From positions 1 through 64,000 of the forward strand of contig NZ_QTJU01000016.1 in the NCBI RefSeq assembly GCF_003412455.1: DNA of 64,000 nt, given 5' to 3'. Of the stretch, positions 3,055 through 38,316 are shown one piece after another (within the stretch, counting starts at the first letter, position 1; every line of letters begins with the position of its first letter). The notes beneath the pieces were generated by a model that was given only the letters and a program-made list of their open reading frames with translations, was not told the origin of the DNA and searched no databases. The translations under genes were made by a program, and so were the position numbers. Origin of the DNA: Deminuibacter soli (GTDB lineage Bacteria; Bacteroidota; Bacteroidia; Chitinophagales; Chitinophagaceae).

Positions 3055-4365
3055 ATGAAGCCAAAAGTAAATGTAATGTGGTTTAGGCGCGATTTGCGTT
3101 TGCATGATAATGCCGCGCTGTACCGCGCATTGAAAGGCAATAATCCTGTGCTGCCGGTATTTATTTTTGATACGCATATTCTCAGCGACCTGGAAGAAAA
3201 AAAAGATGCACGCGTTACGTTTATCTACGACGCCATTGCGCATATGCAACAACAGCTTGAAAAGCTGGGCAGCGGTATGGAAGTGTTGTACGATACACCC
3301 ATAGAGGCTTTCAAACATTTATTGCAGCATTACGATGTTGAAAAGATATACACTAACCGCGACTATGAGCAATATGCTATTGACCGCGACAAATCTATCG
3401 CAGCGTTAATTAAAGAACATGGCGGCAGCTTTCATCATTACAAAGACCAGGTAATATTCGACGGTAATGAAGTGTTGAAAGATAACGGTGAACCATACAC
3501 GGTATTTACCCCTTACAGTAAAAAGTGGAAAGCGCAGCTCACCGATTTTCACCTGCGTTCCTACCCAGCTAAAAAATACTACTCCCATTTTTACCAACAC
3601 AAGGCAAAGAAGCTGCCCAGCCTGCACAGCATGGGTTTTGAACGTACGGAAGATGATTTCCCGGCAGCTCATGTGAGTGATAACCTGATTAAACAATACA
3701 AAGACCAGCGCGATTTTCCCGGTATTGCAGGCACGTCGCGTATGGGCGTGCACCTGCGTTTTGGTACGGTAAGCATACGTGAGCTGGCCAGGCAAGCCAT
3801 GGAGAACAGCGAAGTATATTTAAATGAACTGGTATGGCGCGAGTTTTATCACATGATACTGGCACATTTTGAGCATGTGCGCAAAGGGCATTCGTTCAGG
3901 AAGGAATATGACCATATTAAATGGCGCAATAACGAAAAGGAATTTGACCGCTGGTGCAGGGGCGAAACCGGTTATCCTATTGTAGATGCAGGCATGCGTG
4001 AATTAAATACCACGGGTTTTATGCACAACCGGGTACGTATGATTGTAGCCTCTTTCCTGGCCAAACATTTACTGATTGACTGGCGCTGGGGCGAAGCCTA
4101 TTTTGCTAAAAAACTGCTGGATTATGATTATGCTGCGAACAACGGCGGCTGGCAATGGGCTGCGGGCTGCGGCTGTGATGCTGCGCCTTATTTCAGGGTG
4201 TTTAATCCCTCGTTGCAAACCCAACGGTTTGATAAGGATTTACAATATGTGCGCAAGTGGGTGCCTGAGTTTGAAAGCTTCAATTATCCCGAACCCATTG
4301 TTCCGCATGAGCTGGGACGCAACAGGGCTTTGGATGAATACAAAAAGGCACTAAAAAAGGGATGA
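3055..4365 (+). CDS. Deoxyribodipyrimidine photolyase / cryptochrome family
   Basis: The protein is 436 residues and repairs UV-induced pyrimidine dimers using blue light and FADH-. The N-terminal alpha/beta antenna domain begins VNVMWFRRDLRLHDN, and the C-terminal FAD-binding domain follows. It carries ELVWREFYHMIL, FDRWCRGETGYPIVDAGMRE, FMHNRVRM and the Trp-rich NNGGWQWAAG segment typical of class I CPD photolyases. ATG 3055 is chosen because the photolyase fold begins there. The frame is open upstream to TTG 2935 and would add a 40-residue hydrophobic stretch not found in the family. Its 3' end overlaps the terminator stem of the convergent mqnD. Class I CPD versus (6-4) or cryptochrome-like specificity cannot be settled by eye. 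Confidence 0.9.
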   Translation: MKPKVNVMWFRRDLRLHDNAALYRALKGNNPVLPVFIFDTHILSDLEEKKDARVTFIYDAIAHMQQQLEKLGSGMEVLYDTPIEAFKHLLQHYDVEKIYTNRDYEQYAIDRDKSIAALIKEHGGSFHHYKDQVIFDGNEVLKDNGEPYTVFTPYSKKWKAQLTDFHLRSYPAKKYYSHFYQHKAKKLPSLHSMGFERTEDDFPAAHVSDNLIKQYKDQRDFPGIAGTSRMGVHLRFGTVSIRELARQAMENSEVYLNELVWREFYHMILAHFEHVRKGHSFRKEYDHIKWRNNEKEFDRWCRGETGYPIVDAGMRELNTTGFMHNRVRMIVASFLAKHLLIDWRWGEAYFAKKLLDYDYAANNGGWQWAAGCGCDAAPYFRVFNPSLQTQRFDKDLQYVRKWVPEFESFNYPEPIVPHELGRNRALDEYKKALKKG

Positions 4366-8630: not shown

Positions 8631-9083
8631 CTAAGCCACGGTAAGTGCGCAATTCACCCATTCGGGATCGAGGGTGGCATTGAGTTTTTTGTAGAAGCGG
8701 ATGGCGGGCTCATTCCATTCGAGTACCTGCCAGGCAATGCCATTGTAGTGTTGTTTTTTAGCTTCTTCAATCAGGGCATCAAACAGCAGGGAGCCGATGC
8801 CTTTGCCGCGCCATGCTTCGGTTACCAGCAGGTCTTCGAGGTACATGCGCTGCCCTTTCCAGGTAGAGTAGCGGATGTAATAGAGTGCGAAACCGACTAC
8901 CTGGTTACCGGCTTCGGCTACAAAGGCCCACCATACCGGTTTGCTGCCAAAGCCGCTTTCTTCAAAATGTTCCTGGGAAACGGTGACTTCCTGCGGGGCT
9001 TTTTCAAAAACGGCGAGTTCGTGCACCAGTTCCATCATGCGGGCGCAATCTTTTCGCTCTGCTTTGCGTATGGTTATGCTCAT
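8631..9083 (-). CDS. GNAT-family N-acetyltransferase (SSAT-like)
   Basis: The 150-residue protein has a single GNAT domain that transfers acetyl from acetyl-CoA to an amine. The acetyl-CoA loop is RGKGIGSLLF, preceded by the MYLEDLLVTEAWRG strand, which is characteristic of the diamine/thialysine acetyltransferase (SSAT) branch. WNEPAIRFYKKLNA is the usual C-terminal signature. Substrate (polyamine, thialysine or other small amine) is inferred only from that similarity. Confidence 0.85.
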   Translation of the reverse strand: MSITIRKAERKDCARMMELVHELAVFEKAPQEVTVSQEHFEESGFGSKPVWWAFVAEAGNQVVGFALYYIRYSTWKGQRMYLEDLLVTEAWRGKGIGSLLFDALIEEAKKQHYNGIAWQVLEWNEPAIRFYKKLNATLDPEWVNCALTVA

Positions 9084-9125
9084 GTTTGGTAAAAATACTT
9101 TCCACGAAGTTAAAAGAACAGCGGC

Positions 9126-9569
9126 TTATGGCGCCACCGTCCATACAGAAGTGCGGCCCAGCATAGAGAAACTACAGATATATCCTTTCAGTTTTAATTC
9201 ATTACCACCTGCCTGCAGGGTAAGTTTGCCGCAATAGGTTTTACCGGTCTTGGGGTCGTACACAGTGCCGCCTTCATACACGCCTTCTGTTTTGCCTTTG
9301 GTGAAGCCTTTGAGAATGGGATAGTTCATGAGCGGGGTATTGCGGAGGCTTTCGTTGGGATTTTTGCTATCTGTTCGTGGTTTGCCATTTGCGTCGGTGG
9401 CATCCTGCATCCACACCAGTTTGCCGTATAATTTGCCATCTACCGCTTTGTATACTTCAATTTTGGCGGTCTTTTCCTCGTTAAACCAGGTTTTTTCAAT
9501 GGGCTCTTTCTGGGCAAATGCAGCAAGTGTGCACAGGCAGAGCAAGGCAGCTAACAGGTAATTTTTCAT
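9126..9569 (-). CDS. Secreted DUF2147 family protein
   Basis: This encodes 147 residues. A signal peptide (hydrophobic core LLAALLCLCTLAAFAQ) is followed by a single small beta-rich domain. The features YDPKTGKTYCGKLTLQ, LKLKGYI and LGRTSVWT fit the DUF2147 family as I remember it. The function of the family is not known to me; it is probably a periplasmic ligand-binding or lipocalin-like protein. It is 42 bp downstream of the GNAT gene start on the same strand. Confidence 0.8.
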   Translation of the reverse strand: MKNYLLAALLCLCTLAAFAQKEPIEKTWFNEEKTAKIEVYKAVDGKLYGKLVWMQDATDANGKPRTDSKNPNESLRNTPLMNYPILKGFTKGKTEGVYEGGTVYDPKTGKTYCGKLTLQAGGNELKLKGYICSFSMLGRTSVWTVAP

Positions 9570-9610
9570 GTATATATAAAACGTAATGTACGTGCAAAAG
9601 TTGCCCGCTC

Positions 9611-9650
9611 AATTTGAAAATTTGAAAGTGCGCTAATTTGAAAATGGCAT
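9611..9650 (+). repeat. Octad array, family C (AATTTGAA-type)
   Basis: The 8-bp register has AATTTGAA, AATTTGAA, one unrelated unit, AATTTGAA, then AATGGCAT. An oppositely oriented array of the same family is at 9731-9763, with the terminator at 9694 between them. Confidence 0.6.
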
Positions 9651-9693
9651 ACAACTGCCTGATAGGTAGATTACTAAATGGCTATTAACAAGC

Positions 9694-9725
9694 AAAGCGC
9701 CGGGCAGGGCCGGCGCTTTTTTTAT
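9694..9725. terminator. Strong intrinsic terminator in the fabH-DUF2147 spacer
   Basis: The 10-bp perfect stem AAAGCGCCGG (9694-9703) / CCGGCGCTTT (9710-9719) is followed by seven T. For minus-strand fabH transcripts the A run on the other side is short, so polarity best fits the plus strand, but it may work both ways. Confidence 0.75.
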
Positions 9726-9730
9726 TTTGT

Positions 9731-9763
9731 ATTGCATTTTCAAATTGTCACATTGTCAAATTA
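9731..9763 (-). repeat. Octad array, family C, inverted, starting at the fabH stop codon
   Basis: On the minus strand the units AATTTGAC, AATGTGAC, AATTTGAA and AATGCAAT follow in register, beginning within the TAA stop codon of fabH. Confidence 0.6.
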
Positions 9764-10756
9764 GCCGTTGTAGGCCCATTTGATCCAGGCGGCGCCCCAG
9801 GTGAAACCGCCGCCGAAGGCTGCGAGTACCAGGTTGTCGCCTTTTTTGAGCTGGTTTTCCCATTCCCACAGGCAAAGGGGGATGGTACCTGCAGTGGTAT
9901 TGCCAAAGCGATGGATGTTGATCATCACCTTTTCTTTAGGCAGTCCCATGCGGTTGGCAGTTGCGTCGATAATGCGCAGGTTGGCCTGGTGGGGTACCAG
10001 CCAGGAAATATCATCGGCAGAGAGGTTATTGCGTTCCATAAGCTGAGCGCTTACATCGGCCATGCCGGTTACGGCAAATTTAAACACGGTTTTACCTTCC
10101 TGGTAAGCATAGTGTTCGCGGGCGGTAACGGTTTCAATAGTGGCTGGTTTTAAAGAACCGCCTGCTTTCATGTGCAGGAAATCGCGGCCGCTGCCGTCGC
10201 TTTTGAGGATAGAATCCAGTAGGCCTTCGCCTTCGTTATTGGCTTCGAGCAGCACAGCGCCGGCGCCGTCGCCGAAAATAATGCAGGTAGTACGGTCGGT
10301 GTAATCGATAATAGAGCTCATTTTATCTACCCCAACCACGATTACCTTTTTATAGCGGCCACTTTCGATAAAGCTGGCACCTGTGGTAAGGCCATATAAA
10401 AAGCCGCTGCAGGCGGCACTCATGTCAAAACCCCAGGCGTTGGTAGCGCCTATTTTGTCGGAAATTATATTGGCAGTGGCAGGAAACACCATATCGGGCG
10501 TTACCGTGGCACAAATGATACAGTCAATTTCTTTGGGGTCGAGGTTTCTTTTGCGGAGGATTTCCTGGATGGCTGGAACGGCCATATCGCTGCTGGCCTT
10601 GCCTTCTCCTTTTAATATTCTGCGTTCTTCTATACCCGTACGGCTCTTAATCCATTCGTCTGAGGTTTCTACAATCTTTTCAAGTTCAGCGTTGGTAAGC
10701 CTGTATTCCGGCACATACCCGCCTACGGCGGTAATGGCTGCTGTTATTTTATTCAT
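9761..10756 (-). CDS. fabH: 3-oxoacyl-ACP synthase III
   Basis: The 331-residue thiolase-fold enzyme condenses acyl-CoA with malonyl-ACP to start fatty acid chains. The catalytic triad is visible as Cys116 ([10 protein letters not shown]), His256 (VPHQANLRI) and Asn286 ([10 protein letters not shown]). The C-terminal [13 protein letters not shown] is typical. The start is set at ATG 10756 ([17 protein letters not shown]), five codons inside the longest frame, because a -7 element lies just upstream and the family begins there. In this phylum FabH often prefers branched primers; specificity here is not readable. Confidence 0.93.
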
Positions 10757-18833: not shown

Positions 18834-18864
18834 AAACGCCGCTCAGTTGCTGAGCGGCGTTTGG
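18834..18864. terminator. Hairpin terminator of sprA
   Basis: The perfect 13-bp stem AAACGCCGCTCAG (18834-18846) / CTGAGCGGCGTTT (18850-18862) has a 3-nt loop. The T-tract is short, so efficiency is uncertain. Confidence 0.7.
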
Positions 18865-33754: not shown

Positions 33755-33792
33755 GTATAGTTTGAATAGGTTTTGGTTTAATGCACAGTTTG

Positions 33793-33824
33793 CACCGCAG
33801 TCGTTTGGCTGCGGTGTTTTTGTT
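33793..33824 (+). terminator. Terminator of the Gly/Tyr-rich protein gene
   Basis: The stem CACCGCAG (33793-33800) / CTGCGGTG (33809-33816) is followed by TTTTTGTTTT. Confidence 0.8.
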
Positions 33825-33931: not shown

Positions 33932-34429
33932 ATGGAACAGTACCTTGCCGATTATTTATTAAAACTACCCAAGCAGCTGGCGTCTTCTTCAAGTACTATT
34001 AATCCACGGGATGAGAAAATCAGGTTACAGTTAATAAGTCCTGATGATGATCAATGGCGTTTTATAGTAGACATAACGAACAACCAAAAGAAAGTCTTTA
34101 AAATTTCGTTGCATCACCAGGAGGATACAATGAAGAGTGGATTAATCCGTGTTGATTTTAACAGCTCTCACCGGAACCCGGAAGAGATAAACCCGTTTGT
34201 TCCTGCAAAGCTTTTGCCTTATGCGGGACGTACTTTTATAAATGAACCTCACATTCATTTTCATGTGCAGGGATATAAAGACCTGGTATGGGCTGCTCCA
34301 CTTGACGGGTATGACGGCTTTAAGGTGAAAAGCATTGCATCTCACGAGCAATACTGCGGTGCAATAGTTGAATTTACGAGGTATATAAACTTAAATGGTA
34401 AATTTGTAATACAACAGCGTTTGTTATGA
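33932..34429 (+). CDS. DUF6978-like protein (first gene of two-gene module)
   Basis: The 165-residue soluble protein has no signal peptide. A helical start (MEQYLADYLLKLP) leads to beta-rich sequence (LQLISPDDDQWRFIVDITNN, SGLIRVDFNSSHRNP) and the His-rich EPHIHFHVQGYKD. It fits what I remember of the DUF6978 family, which often accompanies DUF1828/DUF1829 proteins. The EPHIHFHV cluster could bind a metal, but this is speculative. It overlaps the next gene by 4 bp (ATGA), indicating translational coupling. The module is clearly AT-richer than its surroundings, a sign of transfer. Confidence 0.7.
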   Translation: MEQYLADYLLKLPKQLASSSSTINPRDEKIRLQLISPDDDQWRFIVDITNNQKKVFKISLHHQEDTMKSGLIRVDFNSSHRNPEEINPFVPAKLLPYAGRTFINEPHIHFHVQGYKDLVWAAPLDGYDGFKVKSIASHEQYCGAIVEFTRYINLNGKFVIQQRLL

Positions 34430-35205
34430 ATTGGATTAATCCATTGATAGACGACTATCACAATTGGTTGCGTTCTAAAACGGCAGTTGCTGCAGATAGC
34501 GGAACTGGCTGGGCTGCTATAAGTACGCCCTTCACTGGGTTATTCAATGATCTGATTGAAATATATGTTCAAAAAAATCAGAACAAAATTACTTTATCTG
34601 ATAACGGGGAAACCGTTCACAACCTGGAGTTAACGGGCACTAAGCTAAACCGTGGTGAAAGGCAGGAGATTGCGAATAAGATACTGCAGACGTATGGCGT
34701 ATTCCTCAAAAATGATGAGCTACTGATTGAAGCTAACGAACAAAACTTCCCTCAGCGAAAGCATAACTTTATTTCTGCTATCATTGAGCTGAATGATATG
34801 GCAATGCTGTCGTCTCACCAGGTATCAACGGTTTTTAAAGAAGATGTAAGAGATTTTCTGAATGAGAAGCAAATCATCTTCACCCCTGATTTTATTTCGA
34901 AGGGAGTAACCGGTTTAGAGTTTACGTTTGATTTCCAGATTGCTCATAAAAATGAAGAGATTGTTTTAAAATCGTTTAACAGCTTAAACACCATGAATCT
35001 TCCCAGCTTTCTTTTTTCCTGGCAGGATATTAAGCCAGTGAGAGAACGAATTAGTAAGAAAGAAGTAAAAGCTGTGGCTATTATAAATGATACGGAAAAA
35101 GAGATAAAGCCTGAATTTTTAGAAGCCATTACTTCAAAGAGTGCCGAGTTTATATTATGGTCTGGAAGAAATGAGCAGGAAGCATTTGATAAGCTTGTTG
35201 CCTGA
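34426..35205 (+). CDS. DUF1828/DUF1829 domain protein (second gene of two-gene module)
   Basis: The 259-residue protein has an N-terminal DUF1828-like domain (about 25-122; ISTPFTGLFNDLIEIYVQ, ITLSDNGETVHNLEL, NFPQRKHNFISAIIELND). A DUF1829-like domain follows (about 130-255; FKEDVRDFLNEKQIIFTPDF, GLEFTFDFQIAH). Both families are uncharacterised as far as I know and occur in mobile regions and prophages. There is no signal peptide. It is translationally coupled to the DUF6978-like gene. Bases 34561-34620 hold only 18 G/C of 60, far below the flanking genes. A role in defence or as a toxin-antitoxin-like pair is possible but not shown by any residue I can point to. Confidence 0.8.
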   Translation: MNWINPLIDDYHNWLRSKTAVAADSGTGWAAISTPFTGLFNDLIEIYVQKNQNKITLSDNGETVHNLELTGTKLNRGERQEIANKILQTYGVFLKNDELLIEANEQNFPQRKHNFISAIIELNDMAMLSSHQVSTVFKEDVRDFLNEKQIIFTPDFISKGVTGLEFTFDFQIAHKNEEIVLKSFNSLNTMNLPSFLFSWQDIKPVRERISKKEVKAVAIINDTEKEIKPEFLEAITSKSAEFILWSGRNEQEAFDKLVA

Positions 35206-35218
35206 TATAGCATCTTCA

Positions 35219-35262
35219 TAACCAAACAGCCCCGCTTCAGCTGAAGCGGGGCTGTTTGGTTA
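35219..35262. terminator. Perfect 22-bp-arm palindromic bidirectional terminator
   Basis: Arms 35219-35240 and 35241-35262 are exact inverted copies (core AGCCCCGCTTCAG / CTGAAGCGGGGCT) with no spacer. It sits between the DUF1828 gene and the convergent VOC gene. Confidence 0.85.
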
Positions 35263-35271
35263 GTTGGCCAC

Positions 35272-35652
35272 TTAGTCGAGGGTGGCGGTGTGTTGTTCTT
35301 CGAGGGACTGGCCAAACTGGAGTATGTAGCCGTTGTTGTCGTAAATGGCGAACTCGCGCATGCCGTAAGGGAAATCTTCTATGGGGTATACGACTTGTGT
35401 GGTGTCTTTCAATTGCTCCCACAAGGCATCCACATCATGCAGCCGAAAATAAAAAGACCCGGTAAAATGTGCTTTTTCAAAAGGCAGGTGGGCATTGGGC
35501 AGGGAGAGCATGATCGCTGTTTCGCCGTGATGTATGGTGGCCCGGTTGTCGTCGGGGAAGGGGCAGCTGAAGCCCAGTACACCCACATAAAGATCGATGG
35601 TTGATCTTACATCGGCAGTATATAAAACCGGTGTGAGGCTGATAATTTTCAT
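35272..35652 (-). CDS. VOC-family (glyoxalase/bleomycin-resistance-like) protein
   Basis: The 126-residue protein is a single vicinal-oxygen-chelate unit with paired beta-alpha-beta modules (SLTPVLYTADVRSTIDLYVG; FYFRLHDVDALWEQL; FAIYDNNGYILQFGQS). The ends TPVLYTADV and ILQFGQ are typical of small Bacteroidota VOC proteins. Metal ligands expected for glyoxalase I are not all obvious, so enzymatic activity is uncertain. Confidence 0.83.
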   Translation of the reverse strand: MKIISLTPVLYTADVRSTIDLYVGVLGFSCPFPDDNRATIHHGETAIMLSLPNAHLPFEKAHFTGSFYFRLHDVDALWEQLKDTTQVVYPIEDFPYGMREFAIYDNNGYILQFGQSLEEQHTATLD

Positions 35653-38280: not shown

Positions 38281-38316
38281 AAACAAAAAAGGGCATCATG
38301 CCCTTTTTTGTTTTTT
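38281..38316. terminator. Bidirectional terminator downstream of permease 1
   Basis: A perfect 16-bp inverted repeat (38281-38296 / 38298-38313) has its GC core at GGGCAT/ATGCCC and is flanked by A6 and T6 runs. Confidence 0.88.

Follow-up and report, generated by a model that had tools for sequence, protein, structure and literature searches.

PDC-M24 in Deminuibacter soli: a mobile DUF6978 and DUF1828-DUF1829 gene pair that may act as a toxin-antitoxin-like anti-phage module

Introduction

PDC systems are putative defence systems, proposed as candidates by guilt-by-embedding, and most of them await validation (PMC10855318, PMC12988326). A system that has been validated is DS-6/HipAD, in which two genes encode a HipA-like kinase and a DUF3037-DUF1829 protein; its authors hypothesise that it is a toxin-antitoxin system (PMC13092281). 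A third point of comparison is the anticodon nuclease PrrC, which is encoded within a type IC restriction-modification (R-M) locus and is activated when T4 Stp inhibits EcoprrI (PMC12707154).

The gene pair described here comes from a stretch of 64,000 nucleotides of Deminuibacter soli, referred to below as the window. Both proteins match components of the candidate system PDC-M24 over nearly their full length, their genes are adjacent, and relatives are found in or beside known defence genes. PDC candidates are, however, defined by their embedding, whereas the window copy lies outside any defence locus. As in HipAD, the second protein carries a DUF1829 domain, but the partners differ, being a kinase and DUF3037 in HipAD and DUF6978 and DUF1828 here, with no kinase partner. 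The likeness to PrrC-EcoprrI is one of setting, with no sequence relation claimed: pair genes lie among hsd genes at some loci of the same phylum, although no R-M neighbour was found for the window copy.

An initial annotation, made from the DNA alone, put the pair forward as an undescribed system. This does not hold, because the pair is already present in PADLOC-DB 2.0 as the candidate PDC-M24, of which it is a member by its profile matches. Literature searches found no published mechanism for PDC-M24; in the texts available to them DUF1828 and DUF6978 are mentioned only in passing, and the toxicity and phage-plating phenotypes of homologues that the initial annotation hoped to draw on did not come to light for this pair. 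What is new here is the sporadic and mobile distribution, the predicted structures, the one-sided decay of the pair, and the IMG/VR contigs that carry DUF1828 only. We hypothesise that the pair is a horizontally moving two-gene anti-phage module, which would act in a toxin-antitoxin-like manner by abortive infection or growth arrest, with DUF6978 as the toxin. We give this reading a probability of about 0.5.

Genetic organisation of the locus

ORF1 (33932..34429, forward strand, 165 aa) is the candidate toxin. Its residues 1-153 match DUF6978 (PF22398, E 2.7e-21) in Pfam, and its residues 2-165 match the PADLOC profile PDLC04537 of PDC-M24A (E 9.8e-63). ORF2 (34426..35205, forward strand, 259 aa), the candidate antidote and sensor, matches DUF1828 (PF08861, E 3.7e-25) followed by DUF1829 (PF08862, E 8.8e-21), and over residues 1-256 it matches PDLC04539 of PDC-M24B (E 8.9e-96), so that the two PDC-M24 components are encoded side by side. 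The assignment of both proteins to uncharacterised families in the initial annotation is thus confirmed by Pfam; among the NCBIfam matches listed there was none for the pair. AlphaFold2 (AF2) models of both proteins are discussed below.

The base-level features noted in the initial annotation are likewise all present. Stop and start codons overlap by 4 bp as ATGA (34426..34429, forward strand), which suggests translational coupling, and the same overlap occurs in many relatives. The DNA is AT-richer than its surroundings: a count on the sequence gives 18 G/C in 34561-34620, and of the 64 one-kb blocks in the window the one with the lowest GC content is 34001-35000, at 0.390, the next lowest being 0.421. 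Downstream of ORF2 there is a palindrome (35219..35262, on neither strand in particular) with exact 22-bp arms and zero spacer, which is the longest perfect palindrome in the window. RNA folding of the 81-nt palindrome stretch gives -42.3 kcal/mol (z -7.4), far better than for shuffled sequences, and a long T-run after the palindrome is absent. Because it lies between convergent genes, namely ORF2 on the forward strand and a glyoxalase-type gene (35272-35652) on the reverse strand, the simplest reading is that it is a probable two-way terminator. Further perfect hairpins of the same kind are found in the window at 38281-38313 and 18834-18862. The palindrome is therefore not peculiar to the pair, and these examples suggest that palindromic terminators of this type are usual in this window. 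On the upstream side, a consensus scan gives a terminator-like hairpin with a T-tail (33792..33817, forward strand) 3' of the preceding gene, from which it would set the pair apart.

The window copy is surrounded by housekeeping genes and is outside any defence island. A PADLOC search of the 39 window proteins returned, besides M24, only one mad2 and one CARF3 match. Among the best 25 of the 63 Pfam families listed for the window, those other than the families of the pair have ordinary chromosomal functions, and a search for tRNA genes around the window copy found none. The genome contains a single copy of ORF2.

A glyoxalase-type gene also lies directly 3' of the pair at two loci of the same class, L068 (10588-10944) and L069 (10507-10863); there it is on the same strand as the pair and in the window on the opposite one, and its recurrence may be due to chance. 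Homologues of the left neighbour are present in 39 of 147 genomes of the family, and homologues of the glyoxalase-type gene in 68 of 147, both counts including G000. Flanks were fetched from other genomes, 9 around the left neighbour and 11 around the glyoxalase-type gene, and in none of them was the pair or the second neighbour gene present. An exact empty site is not demonstrable, because the junction is not conserved in these flanks.

The ordinary chromosomal genes around the window copy, and the glyoxalase-type neighbour shared with L068 and L069, are what one would expect of a chromosomal pair with a metabolic or stress function and no part in defence. We consider this very improbable in view of the distribution described below, that is, presence over the cut-off in a single genome of the family, carriage by prophages, a satellite and plasmids, and the R-M setting.

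Species distribution and mobility

Only one of the 195 genomes of the window's family contains DUF6978 above the family cut-off, and this is the window's own. A weaker match in the same family (L003) is in a 228-aa ORF, which is read as another kind of protein. Across 395 genomes of the phylum, 24 match DUF1829 and 25 match DUF6978 (22 over the cut-off), with 19 matching both. The five genomes with DUF1829 only comprise three truncated at contig ends (G284, G364, G490), one with no more than the start of DUF6978 (G416), and one with none of it (G484). In four of the six with DUF6978 only (G209, G235, G408, G497) it adjoins a distant DUF1828-type gene; G288 has broken or contig-edge copies, one of them (L067) again with a distant DUF1828-type gene, and G232 has a weak match that is unconfirmed by profile. 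With the contig-edge cases and G232 set aside, every intact DUF6978 seen when the 395 genomes were examined both ways has a DUF1828-type neighbour.

A scan of genome contigs with ORF1 gave one locus, L004, and a viral scan with ORF2 alone gave no match. Relatives of ORF2 are present in 18 of 50,697 phage records. Seven of these regions were fetched, one of them from a satellite phage. In six the pair is flanked on one side by a repressor or helix-turn-helix (HTH) gene and on the other by an integrase or recombinase gene, and in the seventh it directly follows an S24-type repressor. In Lj965 the second gene downstream of the pair is annotated as a superinfection exclusion gene. There are nine matching plasmid records, of which four were fetched: one carries phage genes and has the pair adjoining an integrase, one is IncP, and in one (L011) DUF6978 is present as a remnant only.

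The position beside a repressor, mostly with an integrase on the other side, and the superinfection exclusion gene of Lj965 raise the question of whether the pair serves temperate phages and satellites in superinfection immunity or in the control of lysogeny, contains no toxin and became chromosomal only later. Such an origin appears improbable to us, since the R-M settings, the plasmids and the one-sided decay would demand extra assumptions.

The tree built from the DUF1828 region places the window protein with L068-L070, from the same class, and near L004 from Acidaminococcus, a Firmicute, while L071, also from the same class, is far away. This placement is as expected if the pair has spread horizontally. 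Judged from the records in which it occurs, the pair is sporadic and mobile, being carried by temperate phages, a satellite phage and plasmids. The initial annotation regarded strict vertical inheritance beside housekeeping genes as an argument against a mobile defence system; the window copy does sit among housekeeping genes, but the family as a whole is not inherited in this way. The proposal of a compact mobile unit of the defence or toxin-antitoxin kind is partly supported: it fits PDC-M24 membership, the prophage, satellite and plasmid homologues, the type I R-M settings and the patchy presence.

Restriction-modification setting

Around the pair, 21 same-phylum loci were fetched (L068-L087 and L089), and nine of them (L078-L086) have type I R-M genes at the pair or close to it. 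By similarity, hsdS is found at all nine, hsdM at six and hsdR at seven, several of the loci being cut by contig ends; Pfam confirms hsdM, hsdS or hsdR in L078, L079 and L085. One genus supplies six of the nine, and the remaining three are from two further families. L086, among R-M genes, has the second gene of the pair without DUF6978. In three more loci (L073, L075 and L076) a DNA methylase sequence adjoins the pair. At L075 a 336-aa ORF (8892-9902) runs from methylase-like sequence into the initial part of DUF6978, the latter half of DUF1828, and DUF1829; it looks like a product of deletions and not a working fusion.

These loci, together with the precedent of PrrC embedded in its type IC locus (PMC12707154), suggest that the pair might be silenced by the host R-M complex in the manner of PrrC and EcoprrI, and freed when a phage blocks restriction. 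The weight of the nine loci is reduced by the six that come from one genus. Furthermore, R-M cannot be the general partner, because the pair is found in other places, the window included, without an adjoining R-M gene. As an account of the pair this is quite unlikely, and it may apply to the embedded copies only.

Linkage and loss of domains

The three domains were matched by profile separately and overlapping loci were counted once, which gave 75 loci in total. Coverage of at least 80% for all three domains was found at 51 of them; removal of L058 (DUF1829 in another frame) and L072 (DUF6978 shortened by a stop) and addition of the window leaves 50 intact places. In all 50, two small adjacent genes are inherited together, as in systems of the toxin-antitoxin type. 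Both genes are on the same strand in 48 and on opposite strands in two, L106 (1510-2732) and L112 (1254-2430), where DUF6978 is convergent with, and downstream of, DUF1828-DUF1829; the pair therefore remains linked even without an operon. The layout is also the same in distant pairs (L060, L062, L063, L065 and L066). In toxin-antitoxin operons it is less usual for the putative toxin to come first, and the order seen here therefore counts against a toxin-antitoxin reading.

The way in which the pair decays is one-sided. DUF6978 is broken, reduced to a remnant or missing, with DUF1828 intact, at five loci (L011, L038, L085, L086 and L095), to which L072 can be added as a sixth and milder case, the end of DUF6978 being shortened and its motif kept. 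The reverse, a broken DUF1828 with an intact DUF6978, is found at none. At L058 and L119 it is DUF1829 that is lost from the frame, DUF6978 and DUF1828 being kept, and at L075 both genes are damaged. L122 (RHph_N28_2), which a partial match had pointed to as a case of stand-alone DUF1828, was rejected as such, since the gene is full length and has a DUF6978-like gene upstream, with DUF1829 undetected by profile. L003, L033, L056, L059, L064, L067, L087, L089 and L094 were excluded because they lie at contig edges, are partial or are doubtful.

This pattern is suggestive, in that it matches the traces to be expected if DUF6978 is a toxin and DUF1828 its antidote. The five or six cases are few and the places are not all independent; in addition, most of the viral loci were fetched with DUF1828 queries, and the sample therefore favours intact DUF1828. 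In the best-sampled genus dN/dS is 0.03-0.11 for DUF1828 and 0.11-0.19 for DUF6978, and by this measure both genes are under purifying selection there.

The DUF6978 protein

Conservation was assessed in three alignments of DUF6978, A1 (20 sequences), A7 (18) and A9 (27, including the distant pairs). The initial annotation stated that no catalytic motif is visible. There is, however, a strongly conserved HxN...HxH motif, for which a catalytic role is putative. The HxN half (H80 and N82; 34169..34177, forward strand) has a histidine that is invariant in all three alignments and an asparagine that is invariant in A1 and at least 90% conserved in A7 and A9. In the HxH half (H107 and H109; 34250..34258, forward strand) both residues are at least 90% conserved in A1 and A9 and invariant in A7. 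K14 and R73 are likewise invariant in the 20 sequences of A1. Two streptococcal phage lineages, L008 (DUF6978 at 3455-3925) and L009 (3414-3887), retain HxN and have HxH replaced, with the partner gene intact.

The AF2 model of ORF1 has pLDDT 93.8 and pTM 0.88, and from its strand list the HxN and HxH residues probably meet on neighbouring strands. Comparison of the model with known folds gave no match that can be used (Foldseek against the PDB, best E 0.36; VIA-align, best Z 5.0 over 66 residues; BFVD, best E 0.27), which does not establish a new fold. Sequence searches for solved relatives, made with A1 and with a further alignment, A2, gave best E values of 1.5 and 0.36 respectively, none of them credible, and 27 DUF6978 members compared with Pfam gave no convincing match to a toxin family. 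Kinship with TumE/DUF6516, an idea that arose from a likeness of motif, was rejected: PF20126 is not among the 19 families listed for the 27 members at E <=10 with speed filters on. For comparison, TumE was searched for in 60 genomes of the family and none was found. Since DUF6978 matches neither a toxin family nor a solved fold, its description as a toxin rests on the decay asymmetry and the motif.

The DUF1828-DUF1829 protein

The AF2 model of ORF2 (pLDDT 91.3) splits into two halves, whose mutual arrangement is uncertain in view of the pTM of 0.54. The halves were compared with known structures as separate regions using VIA-align. With this tool, models that lack a clear match typically reach a best Z of 7 to 8, a level that is common by chance arrangement.

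The DUF1828 region (residues 11-131; 34456..34818, forward strand) gives Z 9.1 with 8q8o (3.6 Å over 108 residues), 8.8 with 1xkp, 8.0 with 3kxy and 7.9 with 5z38. In all there are six rows for chaperones or regulators, at Z 7.4-9.1 over 92-108 residues, not much higher than the tool background of 7 to 8. The predicted fold thus resembles that of class I type III secretion chaperones (CesT, SycN/YscB and ExsC) with modest scores, and the match is only a lead because scores at that background level are so common by chance.

The DUF1829 region (residues 130-259; 34813..35202, forward strand) scores higher. Its four best rows are PD-(D/E)XK nucleases at Z 10.7-11.5, with 1y88 at 11.5 (3.1 Å over 110 residues), 9ibq at 11.1, 7bdv at 11.1 and 3bm3 at 10.7; the enzymes concerned are AF1548, BstEII (11.1), Can2 (11.1) and PspGI (10.7). 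In its predicted structure DUF1829 has the alpha-beta-beta-beta-alpha-beta fold of the PD-(D/E)XK core. The canonical (D/E)xK motif of these nucleases is, however, not present in 49 full-length DUF1829 sequences, in a register taken from the strand list and not from superposition: all 49 have a hydrophobic residue at position 180, and position 182 is K in 19, Q in 11, R in 10, N in 5 and other residues in the rest. An active PD-(D/E)XK nuclease was accordingly rejected as a description of DUF1829, the fold being present and the (D/E)xK motif missing.

The strongest rival to DUF6978 as toxin arises at this point, namely that the roles are reversed, so that DUF1828-DUF1829 is the effector, a nuclease whose PD-(D/E)XK site is a variant one, and DUF6978 is its inhibitor, sensor or specificity partner. 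It draws on the clear predicted fold near Can2, BstEII and PspGI, and on the conservation of D169 (41/49), E178 (42/49), D201 (47/49), R206 (46/49) and N221 (45/49). Apart from the missing (D/E)xK motif and the replacement of D169 by N in 5/49, the pattern of decay is difficult to reconcile with it: the five losses of DUF6978 with ORF2 intact, and the one shortening, would be harmful if DUF6978 were the inhibitor, and DUF1829 itself has dropped out at two loci that retain the rest of the pair (L058 and L119). We therefore regard reversed roles as unlikely.

Stand-alone DUF1828 in phage contigs

Seven IMG/VR records contain the DUF1828 domain alone: L093 (5001-5447), L113 (2943-3371), L115 (4992-5387), L116 (4954-5388), L117 (5001-5450), L118 (4992-5369) and L103 (4692-5381). 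Six of the ORFs are 125-149 aa long as called and end shortly past DUF1828. The seventh, in L103, has 229 aa with extra leading sequence and adjoins a recombinase-like ORF, and whether this record comes from a phage is doubtful. Searches of the seven records, which may be fragments, gave no DUF6978 and no DUF1829, nor did any positive control match in these searches. A PHROGs search of 29 neighbour proteins from L093, L115, L117 and L118 gave, among the best 25 of 54 families listed, tape measure protein, exonuclease, a Mu Gam-like protein, HNH and DNA methyltransferase.

In the tree the seven proteins occupy four positions: L093 is beside L085; L113, L115, L116 and L118 are beside L014; L103 is beside L079 and L086; and L117 is beside the group of L095 and L074. 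The three that were scanned with PADLOC profiles (L093, L115 and L117) score as PDC-M24B with E 6.7e-47 or better. One stand-alone DUF1828 searched against the 50,697 phage records matched eight, and as all eight are already known as carriers of the pair, this added no further stand-alone case. For L113, L115, L116 and L118, dN/dS is 0.41-0.78 in five of the six pairs, with few changes, and undefined in the other.

Given the toxin-antitoxin model, the natural reading of the stand-alone proteins is one of anti-defence. We put forward tentatively, as a possibility that the contigs and the tree hint at, that on repeated occasions phages acquired only the DUF1828 half of the second protein and retained it as a counter-defence antidote, which would bind the DUF6978 of the host.

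Conclusions

The pair is real, conserved and mobile. The pairing of the two genes, their mobility, the resemblances of the predicted folds, the conservation of the motif and the one-sided decay are all observed, and the model that we favour, with DUF6978 as toxin, builds on them as follows. DUF6978 would be the harmful protein, probably acting through its HxN...HxH cluster, either as a nuclease or by other histidine-dependent chemistry. The chaperone-like DUF1828 half would bind DUF6978 and silence it, and the DUF1829 half would bind DNA or RNA and so either repress the operon or sense infection. Infection would then free DUF6978; where a copy is surrounded by type I R-M genes, the trigger would be the inhibition of restriction.

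With the predicted folds, the His/Asn motif, the one-sided decay and the DUF1828 proteins of phages in hand, the mechanism of PDC-M24 can be tested directly and cheaply. If the model is true, phages would have copied a chaperone-like antidote, DUF1828, and DUF1829, known from HipAD, would be a nucleic-acid-binding or sensing part common to several defence systems.
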